Source: Bacteroidia bacterium (lineage in GTDB: Bacteria; Bacteroidota; Bacteroidia; Bacteroidales; Prolixibacteraceae). From it: DNA of 18,753 bases. Below the pieces are notes generated by a model. It saw only the letters and a list, made by a program, of their open reading frames with translations. It had not been told where the DNA came from and did no database searches. Positions 10,921-18,753 of the stretch are shown piece by piece; positions within the stretch are counted from its first letter, which is position 1, and every line of letters starts with the position of its first letter. The stretch is taken from assembly GCA_025358395.1 (NCBI GenBank), contig JANYJT010000131.1, forward strand, positions 1 through 18,753, given 5' to 3'. The translations under genes and the position numbers were made by a program.

Positions 10921-11691
10921 ATGCGCTATAAACTCACACTCAAACTGGAAGATCTTTCCCGCAAAACTCTGCCGGTGAACTACCAGTTTGAGTTGGGTTC
11001 GTGGTTCTACCGGATGATAAACAATTCGGAGAGCGCACTATACAACCATTTGGTAGCTTCCGGATATACTCAACAAGAAGAGCCCTTCCGTAATTTTGTC
11101 TTTTCTCACCTGATGGTTCCTGACCGAAAAATTGAGGGTGACAGGCTCATGATGCAAAGCCTGCGAATCGGACTGATATTTTCAACCATTCCGGATGAGT
11201 CCTTGGTTCCCTTGGTTGTTGAGATTTTTCAGGGCAACCGGTTCTTACTCGGAGATAGAATTTCGCAGGTGCCTTTTTTGGTTGAAAAGGTAGAACTGCT
11301 GCCTGATCCGGAGTTTACCGATAAGATGACTTTCAAGACCCTTTCCCCGCTTCACCTTACCATGAAGCTGCAGGGGCGAAAGAACGAGCTCTTTCTCTCG
11401 CCCGAGACTTCAGGTTACACAAGTTTTTTTTACGAAAATCTGCATCAAAAATACAAGACCCTCACTGGTCATGACCATCCACATGACCCGCTTGCAGGAA
11501 AGTTTAAACTAAGATCACCGGTTACCCAAAAGGGGATTACCCTGCAATCGGGTAACCCCGGACAAAACAAACTCATTGGTTATCAGCTGCGCTTCAGGCT
11601 TCAGGCCGATCCAGCCTTGATCAGGGCAGGGTATTATCTTGGTTTTGGGGAGAAGAACCACCTTGGGTTTGGGTGTTGTGAGGTACTTTGA
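10921..11691 (+). CDS. cas6: Orphan CRISPR-associated endoribonuclease Cas6
   Basis: Cas6 enzymes cut CRISPR precursor RNA inside each repeat to make guide RNAs. This 256-residue protein has the family outline. The N-terminal RAMP fold contains LPVNYQFELGSWFYRMI (17-33) and LYNHLVASGY (40-49), where H43 aligns with the usual catalytic histidine (LHxxGY). Then come FRNFVFSHL (56-64), a central FLVEKVELLPDPEF and KFKLRSPVTQKG. The C-terminal glycine-rich loop LGFGEKNHLGFG (240-251), ending GCCEVL, is the Cas6 RNA-contact signature. The gene starts 30 bp after fabD, and the next gene is an unrelated peptidase. No cas1, cas2, interference gene or repeat-spacer array is in the window. It either serves a CRISPR locus elsewhere or has another RNA target. 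Family call is strong; function in this genome is open. Confidence 0.85.
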   Translation: MRYKLTLKLEDLSRKTLPVNYQFELGSWFYRMINNSESALYNHLVASGYTQQEEPFRNFVFSHLMVPDRKIEGDRLMMQSLRIGLIFSTIPDESLVPLVVEIFQGNRFLLGDRISQVPFLVEKVELLPDPEFTDKMTFKTLSPLHLTMKLQGRKNELFLSPETSGYTSFFYENLHQKYKTLTGHDHPHDPLAGKFKLRSPVTQKGITLQSGNPGQNKLIGYQLRFRLQADPALIRAGYYLGFGEKNHLGFGCCEVL

Positions 11692-11864: not shown

Positions 11865-14681
11865 ATGAAGATCAGAAGATTATTTGGAGTCGCATTTTTT
11901 GGCACCCTGTTGTTCACTTTACTGTCATTCGGGTCTATCGCTCAGCCGGTTGCCCCGGATCCTTCGTTCCGAATCGGTAAACTGCCGAATGGGATGACCT
12001 ATTACATCAAGCACAATGAAGAACCCAAGGAGCGGGCCAGTTTTTACATCATCCAGAATGTAGGGGCCCTTTTGGAGAATGACAGCCAGAATGGCCTCGC
12101 GCACTTTCTGGAACACATGGCATTCAATGGCACCAGGAATTTCCCTGACAAAGGAATTATCAGCTCCCTCGAAAAGCACGGTGTAGCCTTTGGTCGTAAC
12201 ATCAACGCTTACACCGCTTTCACCGAAACGGTATACAATATGAGCGATGTTCCGGCTACCCATCCCGGTCTGGTAGACTCTTGCCTGCTCGTTTTGCACG
12301 ACTGGTCACATTACCTGACCCTGTCTGACAAGGAGATTGATGCAGAGCGTGGCGTCATCGTCGAAGAATGGCGTACCCGCCGAACCGCCCAATTCAGGAT
12401 GCAGCGCGCCATGTTCCCGGTACTTTTCAAAGATTCAAAATATGCGGTTCGCGACATCATTGGTGATTCCGCGATCATCAAGCATTTTAAATATGAAACA
12501 CTGCGAAATTTTTACCACGATTGGTATAGGACAGATCTTCAGTGTATTGCTGTTGTGGGTGATGTCAATGTCGATGCGGTAGAGAAATCCATTAAAGATC
12601 AATTTACATCTATCCCTGCTATTGAGAAGCCATTGCCACGCGGCGATGATGCCGTTCCTTTCCACAAGGAAACCCGTTTTGTGCAGATCAAAGACAAAGA
12701 ATCGACCTCCTATTCGGTCAACATCTACATCAAACATCCTGCACCAAAACCGGCCGCTAAGGACATGGCCTACTACCGTGATATGTTTGCTGTTCAGCCG
12801 CTGTTTAACGCCATGATGGGTACCCGTATTTCTGAATTGCTTCAAAAAGGGGTTCCTCCGTTTACCAATGGAAGTGTCGGATTCGGTGGATTCGTCAGGG
12901 GATATAATGTAATGTCTATTTCAGCCACGGCCAAGCCGGATCAGGAGGATGTTGCACTAAAGGCCATTTATACTGAAGCTCAGCGACTTGTCCGTTATGG
13001 TTTCACACAGGGTGAAGTTGACAGGGCCAAAGTGAATCTGCTTTCTCAGACTGAGACCCGCTGGAAACAAAGAGATAAAATCAGCAACGATACTTATGTC
13101 AATGATATTCAGTCTAACTTTCTCGAAGGAGAACCCCTCACATCAATAGACTTTGACTGGCAGATGTTGCAGAAAATTCTTCCAACAGTAACGACAGAGG
13201 AGCTTTCGGCCAAAGCCAAACAGTGGATCGTTCCTGAGAACAGGGTGATCATCGCCATGGGCCCTGACAAGGAAAATGCAAAAATACTGCCTGAGTCTGA
13301 AGCATTGGCGATTCTTAAGGAAGTGGAAGCTTCAGATATCAAACCTTACGAAGACACCAAAGTCAGCTCAAGTCTGATCGACAAGCCGCTGAAAGGTTCT
13401 CCTGTCGTAAAAACGACTCCTCTGCCACAGTTTAAAGCCGTCGAATGGACGCTTGCCAACAAAGCCAAGGTGGTCTATCGCCAGGCTGATTATGAAAAGG
13501 ACAACATCGCTATTCGGGGATTTAGTCCGGGTGGGAATTCCCTCTTGCCGGTCAATCAGTTGGCCTCAGCCATGATGATGTCTCAGTTTATGGGCATGTT
13601 TGGAGTGGGCGATTTTGATGCTACTACCTTAAAAAAGATGCTGACTGGTAAAATTGTCAGTCTTAACGTCGGACTTTCCGAACTGAATGAATCGGTATCC
13701 GGATCGGCTGCACCAAAAGATTTTGAAACGATGCTCCAATTGCTGTACCTTCAGTTTGAGAAACCACGCTTCGACAAAGAGGCTTTCCTGGCTTTGAAAG
13801 GCAGATTTGCAGGCATGGTAGCAGGGTTGGCCAACAATCCTCAAAAAATCCTGACCGACTCACTTGCATTGATCCTGACCAGCCATAGTCCGCGCACTAA
13901 GCTCGTCACTCCGGCTTTGATCGACGAACTTTCCATCGAACAGATGGAGAAAATCTACCGTGAAAGAATTACGGATGCCGGCGATTTTACCTTCCTGATC
14001 GTTGGTAACCTGGATGAAGCCACTGTGAAACCTTTGGTCGAAAAATACATTGGTTCCCTGACAGATCTGCCAAGAACAGAAAAATGGAAAGACAACAACG
14101 TGGAGGGTCCGAAAGGCAAAACCGTTCGTGAAATTGCGATCCCAATGCAGGTGAATAAGGCGACTGTTGTGGTGAATTATAATAAGTTGGCTGCATATGA
14201 TTCAAGGTCTAACCTCATCATGGATATTCTGAAGGGAGTTCTCAGACTTCGCTATACCGAAGAGATCCGCGAAAAAGAGGGTGGCACTTATGGGGTAAGC
14301 GTTTCGGCTAGCAATGAACATTTCCCAAAAGCAGAGAAAAATCTTCAGATGATGTTTGATGCGGAGCCGGAGCGTTCGGCAAAATTGAAATCGATCATCT
14401 TCAGTGAAATCGACAAGATCGTAGCCAACGGTCCAACTGCTGAGGATCTTGATAAAGTTGTGAAGAACCTCTTGAAAGACCGTGAGCAGAACAAGTTGCA
14501 CAACAACTACTGGATGGGCGCTTTAGCCGAATATTACCAGAATGGCATCAATCCGGATGCACCTGAGAGTTTCGAAAAGATTCTTGCCAGTGTTACGACC
14601 GATGAGGTAAAGAAATTTGCCGCCGGCTACTTTAAAACAGCCGATTTGGTTGATCTGATTTTTCTTCCTGCTAAGAAATAG
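11865..14681 (+). CDS. Secreted M16-family zinc peptidase (PqqL-like, two-half type)
   Basis: A 938-residue inverzincin-class peptidase. The N-terminal signal peptide (about 1-26, ending FGSIAQ) exports it to the periplasm. The first half begins with IGKLPNGMTYYIKHN and carries the inverted zinc motif HFLEH (80-84, E83 as catalytic base), followed by MAFNGTRNFP. A downstream ERGVIVEEW (160-168) supplies the third zinc ligand, E160 or E167. NINAYTAFTETVYNM lines the substrate site. The second half, from about residue 530, repeats the fold without a zinc motif, as usual when both M16 domains are on one chain. GGTYGVSVSAS near residue 806 is the conserved RY-type region (EEIREKEGGTYG). Length agrees with other Bacteroidota homologues, which degrade peptides in the periplasm. 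It is followed by a strong terminator. Confidence 0.93.
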   Translation: MKIRRLFGVAFFGTLLFTLLSFGSIAQPVAPDPSFRIGKLPNGMTYYIKHNEEPKERASFYIIQNVGALLENDSQNGLAHFLEHMAFNGTRNFPDKGIISSLEKHGVAFGRNINAYTAFTETVYNMSDVPATHPGLVDSCLLVLHDWSHYLTLSDKEIDAERGVIVEEWRTRRTAQFRMQRAMFPVLFKDSKYAVRDIIGDSAIIKHFKYETLRNFYHDWYRTDLQCIAVVGDVNVDAVEKSIKDQFTSIPAIEKPLPRGDDAVPFHKETRFVQIKDKESTSYSVNIYIKHPAPKPAAKDMAYYRDMFAVQPLFNAMMGTRISELLQKGVPPFTNGSVGFGGFVRGYNVMSISATAKPDQEDVALKAIYTEAQRLVRYGFTQGEVDRAKVNLLSQTETRWKQRDKISNDTYVNDIQSNFLEGEPLTSIDFDWQMLQKILPTVTTEELSAKAKQWIVPENRVIIAMGPDKENAKILPESEALAILKEVEASDIKPYEDTKVSSSLIDKPLKGSPVVKTTPLPQFKAVEWTLANKAKVVYRQADYEKDNIAIRGFSPGGNSLLPVNQLASAMMMSQFMGMFGVGDFDATTLKKMLTGKIVSLNVGLSELNESVSGSAAPKDFETMLQLLYLQFEKPRFDKEAFLALKGRFAGMVAGLANNPQKILTDSLALILTSHSPRTKLVTPALIDELSIEQMEKIYRERITDAGDFTFLIVGNLDEATVKPLVEKYIGSLTDLPRTEKWKDNNVEGPKGKTVREIAIPMQVNKATVVVNYNKLAAYDSRSNLIMDILKGVLRLRYTEEIREKEGGTYGVSVSASNEHFPKAEKNLQMMFDAEPERSAKLKSIIFSEIDKIVANGPTAEDLDKVVKNLLKDREQNKLHNNYWMGALAEYYQNGINPDAPESFEKILASVTTDEVKKFAAGYFKTADLVDLIFLPAKK

Positions 14682-14693
14682 ATTCACAATGAT

Positions 14694-14732
14694 AAAAAAA
14701 GAGGGTGTCCCAAAAGGCACCCTCTCTTTTTT
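14694..14732 (+). terminator. Bidirectional intrinsic terminator after the M16 gene
   Basis: An A-tract, GAGGGTG, a short CC/GG closure around a CAAAA loop, CACCCTC and a run of six T form a stable hairpin with one bulged base, starting 13 bp after the M16 stop codon. The A-tract on one side and T-tract on the other let it work in both directions, as expected between the convergent M16 and ssrA transcripts before the island inserted. Confidence 0.9.
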
Positions 14733-14740
14733 ATGATTGT

Positions 14741-14757
14741 TGTGGAGCTGAGGGGAG
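14741..14757. repeat. Distal attachment-site copy (tmRNA 3' end duplicate)
   Basis: The 17 bases TGTGGAGCTGAGGGGAG are identical, and in the same orientation, to the end of the tmRNA gene at 18196-18212. The match stops abruptly on both sides. It lies 8 bp beyond the M16 terminator. An isolated piece of a tmRNA 3' end at this distance is the standard mark of integration at ssrA. Confidence 0.8.
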
Positions 14758-14906
14758 ATTGCAACGGTTTTTATCTATTTGATATATAATTATTTACAAA
14801 ATGCCTTTTGAGTACCTATTTTAGCAAAAAGGTGACTAGCCTGGTAACCTGCTGCAGAGCGTACCGAAATGTCCTTTAAAACCACTGCAGCATTGTGTAG
14901 TTTTGA
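14758..14906. other. Non-coding left end of the island
   Basis: AT-rich sequence between the distal attachment copy and the first coding-like fragment. It holds one GGTAACC at 14843-14849 and no hairpin or open frame that I would defend. Confidence 0.3.
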
Positions 14907-15080
14907 TTTTATTTAATAGAAACTACCATTGAACAGTTAGACCTCGCGATCGAAAGTCCTTCCAGGATCAAAGACATTGCAATCGATGAAGCGAATGATT
15001 TGAAAGAGATTGCAGCCAAATCGGAAGAATTAAAAATTATCGTTGACAAGTTCAGAGATAAGTACGATCACCTTCGACAA
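14907..15080 (+). pseudogene. Coding-like fragment lacking a start, unknown protein tail
   Basis: After an in-frame TGA at 14904 the plus strand is open and reads as a charged helical peptide: ETTIEQLDLAIESPSRIKDI, then DEANDLKEIAAKSEELKIIV, then DKFRDKYDHLRQSDD. There is no ATG before the coding-like part. ATT at 14928 or TTG at 15000 are weak options. The composition (regular Glu, Lys, Leu and Ile with a heptad feel) resembles the C-terminal helix of a chemoreceptor-like or coiled-coil protein, but I do not recognise a family. Beyond 15080 the frame only runs antisense to the exonuclease gene, so the real protein probably ended near there or was cut by a deletion joining it to the exonuclease. 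I read it as a 5'-truncated remnant. Confidence 0.35.
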
Positions 15081-15662
15081 TCAGATGATCCTTCTTCTTC
15101 TGAGCTCAAAGAAGCACCGGGCAGTCGCCTGGATGTCAACACTGGCATCGTGGGCTTCCTCAAAATCGGCGCCAAACAACTCAATGTGCAATTCCGATAA
15201 CTTCGGCCATTTGTAACTGCCGTAGCGGAATGGCGGAAGGGCACATAAATCAATGATGGCCTGATGCTTCATCGTACAGAATTTGGGCTTCGTCGATAAT
15301 GGATCCCTCCCGGTTGACCGGATAAATTCGCAGCCCAAAATCTTCTCATCAAATTCCATATTATGGGCAACCAATGCTGTTGCCCTTCCGGCCATGGTTT
15401 GAAAGCTTGTTAAAACGTCATTTAATTCGTGCCCTTCGCGCAGGGCCCGATCCGTAGTTATTCCATGAATCCTGGCAACATCTGCCGGTATGGTATAACC
15501 AACAGGCCTGATAATATGGTTCTGGGTCTCTATTAATGTACCATCCTCGTTGTAGAGCAGGAAAGCCAATTGTACCATTCGGGGCCAGTTTCTCGTGTCG
15601 GTTACCGGGGCGCTCCAGCTGCTTGGAAGCCCGGTTGTCTCGGTGTCAAAAAAAAGATACAT
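15081..15662 (-). CDS. DnaQ-like DEDDh 3'-5' exonuclease
   Basis: This 193-residue protein is a complete stand-alone exonuclease of the DnaQ/RNase T superfamily, removing nucleotides from the 3' end of DNA or RNA with two metal ions. All three Exo motifs are visible: FDTETTG (D6, E8), HNMEFDEKIL (D105) and HDASVDIQAT (H171, D176), the DEDDh pattern. RIHGITTDRA (64-73) is also typical of the epsilon-like branch. It lacks a polymerase-binding tail, so it is not the housekeeping epsilon subunit. It lies 30 bp downstream of the RhuM gene on the same strand and is probably co-transcribed. Its 3' end is opposed by the coding-like fragment on the other strand. Being island cargo, it may act in defence, element maintenance or repair; the sequence alone does not say which. 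Confidence 0.92.
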   Translation of the reverse strand: MYLFFDTETTGLPSSWSAPVTDTRNWPRMVQLAFLLYNEDGTLIETQNHIIRPVGYTIPADVARIHGITTDRALREGHELNDVLTSFQTMAGRATALVAHNMEFDEKILGCEFIRSTGRDPLSTKPKFCTMKHQAIIDLCALPPFRYGSYKWPKLSELHIELFGADFEEAHDASVDIQATARCFFELRRRRII

Positions 15663-15692
15663 GTTTTGATGGTTTTGGTTAGTAATATTTTC

Positions 15693-16718
15693 TTAATCTG
15701 TCTTACTGTTCTTGCGTTTCCTTCCTGATGATAAGCTTTTTAACTTTTTTAAATCCTCTTCCAGCTCTTTAAGGCTACCCATCTTTTCACACAATTTTTG
15801 CTGCTCCTTGTACTTTTCGTATTCCTTATCTGCTTTCCGGGTGGCTAATTCATGGGATATTTTACCGGCATGTGTGAGGATATTCCGCTCATTCATGGTA
15901 AGGATCATCCCAAGCCTGCTAATCCAGTCCTTCATGTACATCGGTTTATGGGCCAGCGCCTGGGATTCGGCAAATGCCAGATATTGTTCTACCAATAATT
16001 TCAGGGCGGCCATCTCCTCTTCATCGAGGTAGTTCTTTGCAACCTCGACATCGGTTTTGCGCAATCTGTTTGGGACTTTGGTAGAAGTAAGCCCCATTTG
16101 GGGATTAAGCGCATTGGCGCGGTAATAAATCAGCTCGGCGGCAGTTTTGCCTGATATTGCCCAAAGAAGCTTGTTTTGAACTTCCTGAAAGAATTTCTGA
16201 GTCATCTTAGAGGAAGGGTCGTAATCAATACTTGTCGCATAAATTTCTTTTACTTGCTGGTAAAACACCCTTTCCGACACACGTATCTCGCGTATCCGCT
16301 CCAATAACTCCCGGAAGTAATTCATTGAAGAGCCTGTCTTGAACCTTTCGTCGTTCAGCGTGAACCCCTTCACAATGTATTCTCTCAATCGTTGGGTTGC
16401 CCAGATTCTGAATTGTGTTGCGGTATTAGACTGTACCCTGTAACCAACTGAGATAATAACATCAAGGTTATAAAACTTAATGTGCCTTGTTACATCTCTC
16501 TCTCCTTCTTTTTGAACTTGTGCAAAACTTGCACAAGTTGAACTTTCATTTAATTCATTCGTCTCATAAATATTATGAATGTGCTTGACTATAGACGTTC
16601 TGTCTGTCTGAAATAAGGCTTCCATTTGACTTTGATTGAGCCAAACTGTTTCATCTTCAATAGTAACGTCAACTTTTATGTTTCCTTCCGGATTTTGGTA
16701 TATAACTATTTCGCTCAT
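15693..16718 (-). CDS. RhuM-family protein
   Basis: A 341-residue member of the virulence RhuM family, named after a gene of Salmonella pathogenicity island 3 and common on genomic islands and phage-like elements; its biochemical role is not established. The N-terminal part, VWLNQSQMEALFQTDRTSIV (25-44) followed by KHIHNIYETNEL, looks like a winged-helix DNA-binding unit. KFYNLDVIISVGYRVQS and RIWATQRLREYIVKGF (81-119) form the Bro/KilA-like core. The remainder holds the conserved RANALNPQMGLTS, KNYLDEEEM, EQYLAFAESQA and MYMKDWISRL, and a Lys/Glu-rich coiled coil at 290-330 ends in a basic tail RKRKNSK. Length matches the family and nothing is missing. A perfect 16-bp palindrome at 16740-16755 lies 22 bp before the start, which fits autoregulation. 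The exonuclease gene follows after 30 bp. Confidence 0.92.
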   Translation of the reverse strand: MSEIVIYQNPEGNIKVDVTIEDETVWLNQSQMEALFQTDRTSIVKHIHNIYETNELNESSTCASFAQVQKEGERDVTRHIKFYNLDVIISVGYRVQSNTATQFRIWATQRLREYIVKGFTLNDERFKTGSSMNYFRELLERIREIRVSERVFYQQVKEIYATSIDYDPSSKMTQKFFQEVQNKLLWAISGKTAAELIYYRANALNPQMGLTSTKVPNRLRKTDVEVAKNYLDEEEMAALKLLVEQYLAFAESQALAHKPMYMKDWISRLGMILTMNERNILTHAGKISHELATRKADKEYEKYKEQQKLCEKMGSLKELEEDLKKLKSLSSGRKRKNSKTD

Positions 16719-16739
16719 GTTATTTTGGATTATATCATC

Positions 16740-16755
16740 TTCCTGACGTCAGGAA
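16740..16755. promoter_or_regulatory. Perfect 16-bp palindrome upstream of rhuM, likely operator
   Basis: TTCCTGACGTCAGGAA reads the same on both strands and stands 22 bp before the RhuM start codon. It has no loop and no adjacent T-tract, so it is not a terminator. It is well placed to be an operator overlapping the rhuM promoter. Confidence 0.6.
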
Positions 16756-16832
16756 AACGATTGCGTTCTAATCACACTACAGTCGCCAAGTATTTAATCC
16801 TATCGTTCAATGTAATTGCTTCGTCAAGATTT

Positions 16833-16851
16833 TTGGCTCTCTCAGAGCCAA
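16833..16851. terminator. Hairpin at the end of the lipoprotein gene
   Basis: TTGGCTCT and AGAGCCAA pair perfectly around a CTC loop; the stop codon of the lipoprotein gene lies inside. On the minus strand no T-run follows, so termination is uncertain; it may protect the 3' end of the mRNA. Confidence 0.4.
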
Positions 16852-17819
16852 TTACGGGCGTATTTTTTAAGCGAACGGCTGTTCCAGCCATACAAAACCA
16901 ATAACATCCCTTTCTCTCCGCCAACTTCAGCATAGTCAATATCGGTGGCAATTACTGCGTTGCCACCTAAGTCCATCGCCTGAATTCTTAATTGGGTAAA
17001 ACACAGATCTTCTCCTCCTTTAATTTTTTTATTATAGGTTTTTGATTGGGCTCCAAAAAAGTCTGTGAAGGAGGATGAAAATTCAGAGAATACTCCGGTT
17101 CCTGTTGTGGATTGACCGGTTACCATTCCAATTATTTCATAATCCCAATTAAAAGGGTTTTGCGCTGACACTACGGGAATACTTGAAATGAGTTTTAGAA
17201 GTTTGCTTTCTGAATGTGTTTTTTCATTCGAGGCCTCTAATTTGGCTTTTGATAGATAATTTTCACCACACTTAGAGCAGTAATTTGGTGACTTTGCTTC
17301 TGAGACAAACTCCCTATATCCCTGCTCCTCGAAAAATTTATCCCAGTTGCATGGTCTTCGAATTAATTTAATAGAATTCGATTCTGTCCCAGCCTCCACA
17401 GTATAAAATTCTTCGTTAAGTATTTTGACTTCATTCTTAGCAACCCGGAATACAACTTTGTAACATGGCTGCTTGCTTACTTTCTCAGATGATGCAGTCT
17501 TTTTAGCTTGGAGGTAAATTTTATTAGCTATTTCTTTTTTCAATGCATTGTACTGCTCGGGTGTTACGGCACCTAAACTCAATTTTGCGGTAATTTCATC
17601 AAATTTCAATTTTGACTCTTCAAAATCCTTTTTAAACAACTTTATATCATTAATAATTTCGACAACATTGGCACTGTCCTGTTTTAACTCCACTATTTCT
17701 GGATTGACAAACCTGGCATTGATATCGTCCCTGATTCGTTTTTCAATACCAGAAGAACAGGAAGCAAGCATAATTGCTGACAATACAGTGAACAAATTTA
17801 TTTTGGTTTGGATTTTCAT
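16842..17819 (-). CDS. Lipoprotein with C-terminal YbjQ-like domain
   Basis: I recognise no full-length family, but two parts can be read. The N-terminus is a lipoprotein signal with lipobox LASC, so C21 would be lipidated and the protein membrane-anchored outside the cytosol. Residues 24-115 are charged and helical (KRIRDDINARF, IINDIKLFKKDFEESKLKF). Residues 119-190 hold C119, C157 and a CSKC pair (C181, C184) resembling half of a zinc ribbon. From about 226, YEIIGMVTGQSTTGTGVFSE, SFTDFFGAQSKTYNKKI and LRIQAMDLGGNAVIATDIDY, then MLLVLYG, follow the pattern of the YbjQ/UPF0145 domain, a small pentamer-forming family often labelled heavy-metal-binding. YbjQ proteins are normally about 105-residue cytosolic proteins, so the fusion to an exported lipoprotein is odd. 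Base composition is clearly AT-richer than the core genes, which fits transfer. Confidence 0.72.
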   Translation of the reverse strand: MKIQTKINLFTVLSAIMLASCSSGIEKRIRDDINARFVNPEIVELKQDSANVVEIINDIKLFKKDFEESKLKFDEITAKLSLGAVTPEQYNALKKEIANKIYLQAKKTASSEKVSKQPCYKVVFRVAKNEVKILNEEFYTVEAGTESNSIKLIRRPCNWDKFFEEQGYREFVSEAKSPNYCSKCGENYLSKAKLEASNEKTHSESKLLKLISSIPVVSAQNPFNWDYEIIGMVTGQSTTGTGVFSEFSSSFTDFFGAQSKTYNKKIKGGEDLCFTQLRIQAMDLGGNAVIATDIDYAEVGGEKGMLLVLYGWNSRSLKKYARNWL

Positions 17820-17841
17820 GATATGCTTATTTAGTAGGATT

Positions 17842-17854
17842 TTAGGTAACCTAA
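17842..17854. promoter_or_regulatory. TTAGGT-A-ACCTAA palindrome before the lipoprotein gene
   Basis: A perfect 6+1+6 palindrome 22 bp upstream of the lipoprotein start codon. A near copy (TTAGGTTACCTA) occurs at 18139-18150, so a shared binding protein is plausible. Confidence 0.45.
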
Positions 17855-17917
17855 TTCTTTATCTCACACTTCTTTTAATCTATTAAGAGTATTATTTCGG
17901 TTATGGTTATAATGGTA

Positions 17918-18085
17918 TTAACTAACCTCCGGTGTACCACCATTAACCTGCACGTGCATCTCCATTGCTTCGAGGGCGGCTATGATCGATATAATTTGAG
18001 TCTTCTCATTTTGTTGGATTTTGATTGGTCTGAGTGTCCCACCACTAAAAACAATCTCACCTATGAAAAAAACTCCAGGATACCA
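17918..18085 (-). pseudogene. Short coding-like frame without a start codon
   Basis: Between an in-frame TGA and a TAA, the minus strand is open for 55 codons and reads WYPGVFFIGEIVFSGG, then TLRPIKIQQNEKTQIISIIA, then ALEAMEMHVQVNGGTPEVS. The even mix of residues and the amphipathic helix near the end look like real protein, but the only ATG codons are close to the end. I do not recognise the family. It lies between the tmRNA and the lipoprotein gene, where an island integrase would often sit, yet shows no tyrosine-recombinase motif. It is most likely the 3' remnant of a deleted gene, or a small gene using an unusual start. Confidence 0.3.
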
Positions 18086-18107
18086 TCAGATACCTACTTT
18101 TCTGATA

Positions 18108-18153
18108 GGTCACCTGTTTGGTCACCTGTTTTGCTGTTTTAGGTTACCTATTT
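18108..18153. repeat. Cluster of GGTNACC palindromes, two in a 12-bp tandem repeat
   Basis: GGTCACCTGTTT occurs twice head to tail (18108-18119, 18120-18131), and a third site, GGTTACCTATTT, follows at 18142-18153. Each contains the palindrome GGTNACC seen again upstream of the lipoprotein gene. The layout suggests repeated operator sites next to the island end. Confidence 0.45.
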
Positions 18154-18195
18154 ACGCAATTTAAAGACCTGTAAATAAGTTACTTAAAGAAGCAG

Positions 18196-18212
18196 TGTGG
18201 AGCTGAGGGGAG
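18196..18212. repeat. Proximal attachment-site copy inside the tmRNA 3' end
   Basis: Same 17 bases as at 14741-14757. Here all but the first two bases belong to the acceptor and T-arm part of the tmRNA gene, so integration would leave tmRNA intact. Confidence 0.8.
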
Positions 18213-18589
18213 TCGAACCCCTGTCCAAACGAGGAAGCAATACGTTTTCTCCATGCTTAGCCTTGATTTGGTTTTCGAATGACAGCTGGCTCGAGGCCAC
18301 CGACCGTCATCTTAACTCCGGTTATTTCGCCAGAGATGCGGAGTAAACCTCTGACTATTCCCGATTTATCTGCACCTCCGGGTCGGGCCGCTTCAGGACA
18401 TGGCACCCGGGAGATGTCTCGCTCCGGTATCTAATACCGGATTAGCAGATCAACTTTGAGTTGATCAAGCGGCAAGAGCGAAGTTATCTGCGCCAACTAA
18501 TTGTTTGAGCCTTAAGATTTACGGGCCAAAACTCAATGCCCGGCATGCTTACATACCTCTTCTGCCCGCTGTCAAAACCGGTCAGCCCC
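18198..18589 (-). ncRNA. ssrA: Transfer-messenger RNA
   Basis: tmRNA rescues stalled ribosomes and tags the unfinished protein for proteolysis. The 5' end reads GGGGCTGACCGGTTTTGACA and the 3' end GGTTCGACTCCCCTCAGCTCCA. GGGGCTG pairs with CAGCTCC to form the acceptor stem. The discriminator A at 18198 is followed by CAC, so the CCA end is not encoded. The tag frame is at 18465-18494 on the minus strand: GGC GCA GAT AAC TTC GCT CTT GCC GCT TGA, coding GADNFALAA. This follows the Bacteroidota form GxxNYALAA, with Phe for Tyr. Length 392 nt is typical of a one-piece tmRNA. A TAnnTTTG element lies 10 bp upstream. Confidence 0.96.
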
Positions 18590-18606: not shown

Positions 18607-18624
18607 CGATTAAATACGGAGAAA

Positions 18625-18753
18625 GTACTTAGAATACTTAGAGTTTGGAGTACTTAAGGAAGAGTACTTAGAATACTTAGAGTTTGGAGTACTTAAGGAA
18701 GAGTACTTAGAATACTTAGAGTTTGGAGTACTTAAGGAAGAGTACTTAGAATA
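18625..18753. repeat. Perfect 39-bp tandem repeat, at least 3.3 copies
   Basis: Copies begin at 18625, 18664, 18703 and 18742 and are identical; the last is cut by the window edge. Within each unit the motif (G/A)TACTTA recurs three times at offsets of about 0, 9 and 25. One plus-strand frame is open through every copy and would read YLEYLEFGVLKEE per unit, but no start codon is seen before it. There are no spacers, so it is a minisatellite and not a CRISPR array. Confidence 0.95.

Follow-up and report, generated by a model that had tools for sequence, protein, structure and literature searches.

How an island without a recognisable integrase came to lie between two copies of the 3' end of the gene for transfer-messenger RNA (tmRNA), ssrA, is the question raised by this locus. 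The window, the whole 18,753-nucleotide stretch of contig JANYJT010000131.1 from a bacterium of the Prolixibacteraceae (Bacteroidota), carries such an island of about 3.4 kb beside its ssrA gene. An earlier note on this DNA had left it as either a satellite-like cassette or the remnant of a larger element. We consider it probable, at roughly 70%, that positions 14741-18196 are a reduced element of the cis-mobilizable (CIME) type, which derives from a larger ssrA island and has lost the integrase.

The boundaries of the island are two exact same-strand copies of the 17-nt sequence TGTGGAGCTGAGGGGAG, at 14741-14757 and 18196-18212. They are its sole matches in the window even when up to three mismatches (<=3) are allowed, and shuffled windows gave 0.03 matches on average and two matches in none of 200 shuffles, on which ground a chance repeat was rejected. 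The copy at 18196-18212 (plus strand), the near attachment site, is the present 3' end of ssrA. The tmRNA gene is complete with the tag GADNFALAA and was located on the minus strand by ARAGORN at 18197-18589 and by Rfam at 18195-18589 (RF00023, 150.2 bits, model positions 1-374 of 374); 16 of the 17 repeat nucleotides lie within the gene as ARAGORN draws it, the first T of the repeat being just outside. The far attachment site at 14741-14757 (plus strand) is an exact displaced copy of this 3' end. It starts 59 bp past the stop codon of an M16 peptidase gene (11865-14681, plus strand; PF00675 and PF05193), a core flank that adjoins ssrA directly in three relatives, and immediately beyond a terminator-like hairpin with a T run (14690-14733, plus strand, by direct reading), which forms the left flank of the empty site; comparable hairpins were seen by eye 3' of M16 in the loci L001, L002, L003, L004, L005 and L030. 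The island is bounded, as ssrA integrative islands are, by the ssrA 3' end and a displaced copy in direct orientation, and the earlier description of these 17-bp copies, the far one beside the M16 terminator, was correct on both points.

The same junction was read in relatives. Fifty loci with an M16 relative were compared, most of them distant or without a tmRNA in the stretch, and the M16-ssrA interval was read in the close ones. In three genomes (G003, G007 and G031) the site is empty: M16 and its terminator run straight into ssrA with one core copy, and 56-66 bp separate the end of the M16 match from the ssrA core. This is the empty site with a single 17-bp copy that the earlier note had proposed to look for. 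In the nearest relative found (G001, M16 84.4% identical in DNA to that of the window) the interval is occupied by a single Fic gene of 361 aa, and next to M16 no more than about 10 nt of the core remain. The gap of G006 also holds a 361-aa Fic gene, that of G002 a 512-aa Fic gene and a lipoprotein group, and that of G004 other open reading frames (ORFs) and no second core copy, while the stretch of G005 ends shortly inside a Fic-type insert; inserts with other cargo at the identical M16 junction are those of G001, G002, G005 and G006. The genes of the window island occur in the M16-ssrA gap of none of the seven linked relatives (G001, G002, G003, G004, G006, G007 and G031), and neither the same genes here without a second copy nor a gene order conserved across distant genera, the two patterns that the earlier note had named as speaking against an island, was encountered. 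Conserved core gene order was likewise rejected as an account, the sites of relatives being empty or differently filled. Since the site is empty in three relatives and holds a Fic insert in G001, the 3.4-kb stretch is acquired DNA at an integration hotspot, and the horizontal origin supposed for it by the earlier note is supported. As a separate observation, the tmRNA gene of G003 (L003 12832-13173) is 51 nt shorter than those of its kin and has an odd ARAGORN tag; its 3' end and M16 junction look normal, and the shortness may be a real loss or an assembly fault.

Between the copies lie three genes, all on the minus strand, which Pfam identifies as the exonuclease, RhuM and YbjQ genes that had been read there from the letters. 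The first (15081-15662) encodes a 193-aa 3'-5' exonuclease of the RNase_T/DEDDh type (PF00929, 9.8e-11; PADLOC DEDDh, 2.6e-26; phrog_192, 8e-33). The second (15693-16718) encodes a 341-aa RhuM family protein (PF13310, 3.4e-107), a candidate single-gene phage defence, PDC-S05, whose PADLOC profile it matches near full length at 1e-136 over residues 2-327 of 341; the N-terminal half gives a second PADLOC match, to PDC-S23 (1e-57). The third (16842-17819) encodes a 325-aa lipoprotein-like protein with a C-terminal YbjQ domain (PF01906, 2.9e-13; phrog_15412, 1.7e-21) and a lipobox-like LASC seen by eye in the translation; when it was sought in viral contigs, two stretches fitted a pattern and neither was confirmed. 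RhuM and the exonuclease span nearly the entire family profiles, and two of the genes match phage protein families (PHROG). In addition, a start-less open frame of 57-60 aa (14913-15092, plus strand) is, from its translation, possibly a piece of a lost gene; its best Pfam value is 0.16, it has no PHROG match, and it was unmatched in 140 genomes of the family in a search without a positive control. The GC content of the island is mixed, about 0.36-0.45, with no sharp step. Upstream of the YbjQ gene, the intergenic positions 17840-17913 align at 78% over 79 positions with a contig of G031 (L143 10180-10256), where the matching stretch separates two small ORFs in phage-like surroundings, a likeness which explains nothing yet.

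The absence of a recombinase claimed for the island was confirmed: the integrase box II motif is missing from all island ORFs of at least 110 aa, and tblastn with ten integrases of the family against 14700-18230 gave zero matches at E up to 5. The window island lacks the integrase of its own that marks an ssrA integrative island. Profile, motif, tblastn and PHROG scans recognised no integration or transfer gene among the window ORFs, as is the case for a CIME. Phage satellites usually encode integration, replication or packaging genes, and the window differs from them in that Pfam and PHROG recognised no integrase or other integration gene, no replication gene and no packaging gene among its ORFs.

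Both ends of the island keep short repeats. Inside the near end lie GGTCACCT, GGTCACCT and GGTTACCT (18107-18153, plus strand, with starts at 18108, 18120 and 18142), inside the far end lies GGTGAC together with GGTAACCT (14826-14850, plus strand), and an additional AGGTNACCTATTT-like site with one mismatch lies upstream of the YbjQ gene (17844-17856, plus strand). In terms of GGTNACC, the island sites are at 18108 and 18120 (12 nt apart), 18142 and 17845 towards ssrA and at 14843 at the far end. The tandem pair occupies the region where the large elements of G041 and G067 have TTGTTCACC repeats, and the near ends of G041, G067, G132, G010 and the G006 mini-island each have one repeated motif in both orientations, of the TTGTTCACC, TTGCCACC or TTGCCCCC type, about 110-150 bp from the core, with related copies inside the far ends of several elements. 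By this resemblance the end repeats of the window would be integrase arm sites. The motif GGTNACCT has 10 hits in the window against 1.28 expected (0 of 200 shuffles had as many), which are seven places since it is near-palindromic, five of them in the island and all of these towards its ends, and 5 of the 12 GGTNACC sites of the whole window lie in the 510 bp that make up the island ends, figures that overstate the evidence because the motif was chosen after inspection. The near and far arms have seven 8-mers in common against 2.04 expected, a number reached in 5 of 300 shuffles. Over 14 elements this test is uneven and is no proof, the observed number being reached out of 300 shuffles in 1 for G132, 5 for the window, 6 each for G131 and G065, 8 for G009, 14 for G041, 21 for G006, 26 each for G061 and G071, 81 for G067, 95 for G106, 146 for G010, 220 for G044 and 260 for G002. 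A CIME keeps two attachment sites, attL and attR; the exact core copies and the arm-like repeats at both ends of the window island may correspond to such sites. A likeness of the far-end core (GGGAGATT) to the prophage-type ends of G009 and G017 extends to a few bases only and was not used.

The family offers a range of elements at the same site. The core pattern was sought in 140 genomes of the family of G001, a search that overlooks diverged copies and is limited by the fragmentation of many assemblies. In 16 of the 140 the contig with ssrA has another core copy downstream of the gene, at a large interval in eight, a small one in five and a very short one in three. The large intervals are those of G132 (23 kb), G041 (28 kb), G071 (43 kb), G065 (44 kb), G009 (45 kb), G061 (51 kb), G067 (72 kb) and G010 (146 and 110 kb in tandem), and the small ones those of G131 (1.25 kb), G006 (1.87 kb), G106 (1.95 kb, one mismatch), G044 (1.98 kb) and G002 (4.65 kb). 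The very short intervals of 109-134 bp belong to G033, G097 (whose ssrA is truncated where the contig stops) and G100; between these copies (L159 4855-4978, L160 5131-5279 and L161 7017-7134) a similar short inverted-repeat stretch was seen by eye. All eight large elements have an integrase ORF at a distance of 59-248 bp from the ssrA core (the second interval of G010 left out), and for the five small ones no complete integrase was found. The integrase gene beside ssrA in G010 (L144) is interrupted, by what we take, from the look of the proteins, to be IS21-type istA/istB-like genes. Judged by eye from size and neighbouring ORFs, the elements of G009, G061, G065 and G071 look prophage-like. 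Moreover, a phage-like contig of G017 (G017:C42, L166) carries, outside ssrA, a core copy of the ssrA type with an integrase ORF next to it, and it looks like an unintegrated phage with its attP unoccupied; a reverse-transcriptase-like ORF was also seen on it by eye.

When the sequence up to 1.5 kb beside ssrA in 40 genomes was compared with 16 query proteins, 12 had an integrase, 3 had M16 (empty sites), 6 had Fic or DUF2971 and 19 had no query, G006, which has an integrase stump too, being counted under Fic. Fic-like sequence is present in 10 of 16 segments reaching up to 5 kb inward from a core copy, and the six that lack it are the four ends of prophage type, the phage contig of G017 and G012; the matches are weak in part (edge only in G005, partial or weak in G010, G021 and G008b). 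RhuM was found in none of these 16 segments. Several elements carry Fic close within the far end and an integrase close within the near end, and of the two it is Fic that most small islands keep. A Fic gene occurs in four of the six small islands and is likewise found near the far end of many larger elements.

The cargo of the small islands is consistently of a candidate defence type. A candidate defence gene is present in all six small islands with two core copies (the window, G002, G006, G044, G106 and G131), the 109-134-bp intervals being left out of this count as too short for such a gene. The Fic proteins of G001 and G006 match PADLOC SoFic (2.9e-110 and 2.7e-112), those of G002, G044 and G106 match PDC-S24 (2.2e-192, 2.5e-186 and 1.4e-190), and the DUF2971 protein of G131 matches PDC-S31 (1.1e-21); a Fic beside ssrA in G029 (1e-192) has no second core copy and was not counted. 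PADLOC gave no match for the window YbjQ protein or the CsgG protein of G002, the other lipoprotein genes of G002 being outside the scan. Among seven ordinary control proteins, the G002 CsgG included, rho alone was hit, and weakly (6.3e-5), the other six giving no match. For a further control, the M16-bearing loci supplied a pool of 285 ORFs without the Fic ORF of G006; after shuffling, the first 60, each 200-700 aa long, gave hits to three families at 1e-15, one ORF each. This control cannot show that small islands exceed mobile elements generally because it consists mostly of core-like genes. The PDC families are described as candidates named by embedding, mostly unvalidated in the accounts given there (PMC12988326, PMC12482510). 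The Fic of G001 weakly matches the later part of the PDC-S23 profile (1.3e-4), and together with the RhuM match to PDC-S23 this is a lead that the two cargoes may be related in use.

Signs of reduction come from the sister islands. What remains of an integrase next to ssrA in the G006 mini-island is an N-terminal stump, which over 50 aa shares 58% identity with the G008 integrase and has an Arm-DNA-bind_5 match (5.9e-5), and the G044 mini-island is 91.4% identical over 1771 bp, from the displaced copy inward, to the far end of the 28-kb element of G041. Both look like deletion products of large integrase-bearing elements, and for both the derivation from an integrative element that belongs to the notion of a CIME is indicated; the searches revealed no parent of the window island. 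Between G001 and G006 the Fic genes share 91.3% of their DNA positions with 18.8% third-codon-position mismatch, against 73-75% identity and 49-55% third-position mismatch for the flanking M16, rpe and sigma genes, an indication that the Fic cargo passed horizontally between lineages. Because the two inserts do not share their inner junctions and the far arm is missing from G001, this cargo may have travelled inside a larger element.

On this basis we propose that the window island entered at the ssrA 3' end by site-specific recombination and was later reduced, probably by internal deletion as its sister mini-islands appear to have been. What is left would be both core sites, the arm-like end repeats and three intact-looking genes with no integrase. 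Excision could still occur if a matching integrase were supplied, and RhuM, as a candidate phage-defence gene, may be the cargo whose benefit saved the remainder from loss. Of the two alternatives in the earlier note, the remnant is favoured by the large elements at the same site and the two deletion-like mini-islands, and the satellite cassette is less favoured. For the window itself we infer the deletion from the sister islands, because neither a parent nor an integrase trace was found.

Several results weigh against this reading. The searches turned up no element that has both an integrase and the end sequences of the window: its near-end DNA has no convincing match in 393 genomes of the order (best 31 bp at E 4.6e-5), a spaced motif occurs in none of these 393, and the 22-mer sought in viral contigs did not occur there. 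Nor did tblastn reveal any remnant of an integrase in the window. Among 34 near ends read, that of the window is the only one with two or more GGTNACC sites within 400 bp; the end-repeat motif was picked from the inspected ends themselves, and the shared-8-mer test is near chance in 5 of 14 elements (G002, G044, G106, G010 and G067). The three genes look intact, as those of a decaying remnant need not. Furthermore, the DNA of the whole island showed no integrase-bearing parent of the same type at the best two places per genome in the 140 family genomes; matches at E 0.001 or better occur in 81 of the 140, mostly RhuM- or exonuclease-coding and on scattered contigs, the best being 71% over about 950 bp in G079. 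The parent-search negatives are weak, as the whole-island and near-end searches scored the best two places per genome and the order sample has few family members.

The alternative that survives best, unlikely in our judgement, is a functioning minimal cassette, moved in the manner of a satellite by an integrase that some ssrA-specific element or prophage, already resident or newly arriving, supplies in trans. It would account for the preserved arm-like repeats at both ends and the near-full-length RhuM and exonuclease; the crossing of lineages by the G001/G006 Fic cargo with its low third-position mismatch, the prophage-like ssrA elements of G009, G061, G065 and G071, the attP-like G017 contig and the two window genes with matches to phage protein families also agree with it. 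However, the differing inner junctions of G001 and G006 and the lost far arm of G001 fit transfer of a larger element followed by separate deletions, and the window's unit was seen in no relative, the whole-island DNA matches covering parts only. Moreover, a search with the G008 integrase detected none at 1e-60 in G006, G029 and G106, and those that it detected in G001, G002, G044 and G131 were no more than 31-38% identical, a weak negative since the best 12 candidates per genome were considered and the assemblies are partly fragmented. A broader form of the idea, which we hold at similarly long odds, would make the small ssrA islands of the family a working class of trans-mobilised single-gene defence cassettes, each of core and arm sites with one conflict gene (RhuM, Fic or DUF2971); many large elements would have, close within the far end, a slot for Fic from which cassettes are cut and re-used, and the window would be a third arm-site type with RhuM cargo.

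More doubtful still is a fixed relic, once mobile, whose ends are now non-functional and whose end repeats are incidental. Decay is common at the ssrA site, because other small inserts have lost an arm (the far arm in G001; no near-end arm repeats were seen by eye in G002 and G044), and the start-less frame near the far end and the mixed GC of about 0.36-0.45 with no sharp step agree with it; against it, the two core copies are still identical and the end repeats exceed chance, albeit for a motif chosen after inspection. A chance repeat or an assembly artefact is very improbable and in the main refuted by the empty and differently filled sites, for although the assembly of the window is unchecked, the repeat is far beyond shuffle expectation, inserts with other cargo lie at the M16 junction in G001, G002, G005 and G006, and second core copies at ssrA recur in 16 of 140 genomes.

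Two features outside the island were also recorded. Directly upstream of the ssrA 5' end, a 39-bp unit is repeated in 3.3 copies with 100% matches (18624-18753), and different short tandem repeats were seen by eye at the corresponding place in L002 and L003. On the other side of M16, a Cas6 gene (10921-11691), the only cas gene recognised among the scanned ORFs of the window, stands beside an acyltransferase gene, and the pair is retained in L002, L003, L004, L005 and L030 with 61-82% identity of the Cas6 protein.

Integrase-less ssrA islands, the CIME idea and the tmRNA hotspot are already known. In Dehalococcoides, islands downstream of ssrA likewise lie between short direct copies of the 3' end of the gene, 15 of 31 are integrase-less, and a CIME nature was suggested; the module there is of serine recombinases and the cargo includes many reductive dehalogenases, whereas the ssrA elements of the present family have tyrosine integrases and its small islands carry candidate defence genes (PMC3146451). 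A CIME is described as a decay product of an integrative and conjugative element or an integrative and mobilizable element, often in tandem with another element (PMC5704250); the window differs in that neither parent nor tandem partner was seen. The locus resembles hotspot 9 of Escherichia coli, where a study of defence islands has the tmRNA locus entered by prophages, satellites and other elements, and differs in belonging to another lineage and in that E. coli islands of unclear mobilisation typically have an integrase or recombinase (PMC10121019). It is also like PICMI and other phage satellites in being small and presumably dependent on another element (PMC10803314, PMC11389934). No report of integrase-less ssrA islands of Bacteroidota was found among the papers listed from the open-licence literature under the terms used. 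The island of a Riemerella anatipestifer study reportedly has an integrase (PMC6764341). TIGER/Islander is described as requiring at least one integrase gene and excluding islands below 2 kb (PMC12424338), and because of the first requirement integrase-less islands are missed by such finders. To these the window adds a case from the Bacteroidota whose two ends both carry arm-like repeats; taken together with its sister islands, it also shows cargo that is consistently of the defence type. The picture would be one in which candidate defence genes are left in chromosomes as mobile elements decay, and islands of this kind may be a route to further candidate defence genes.

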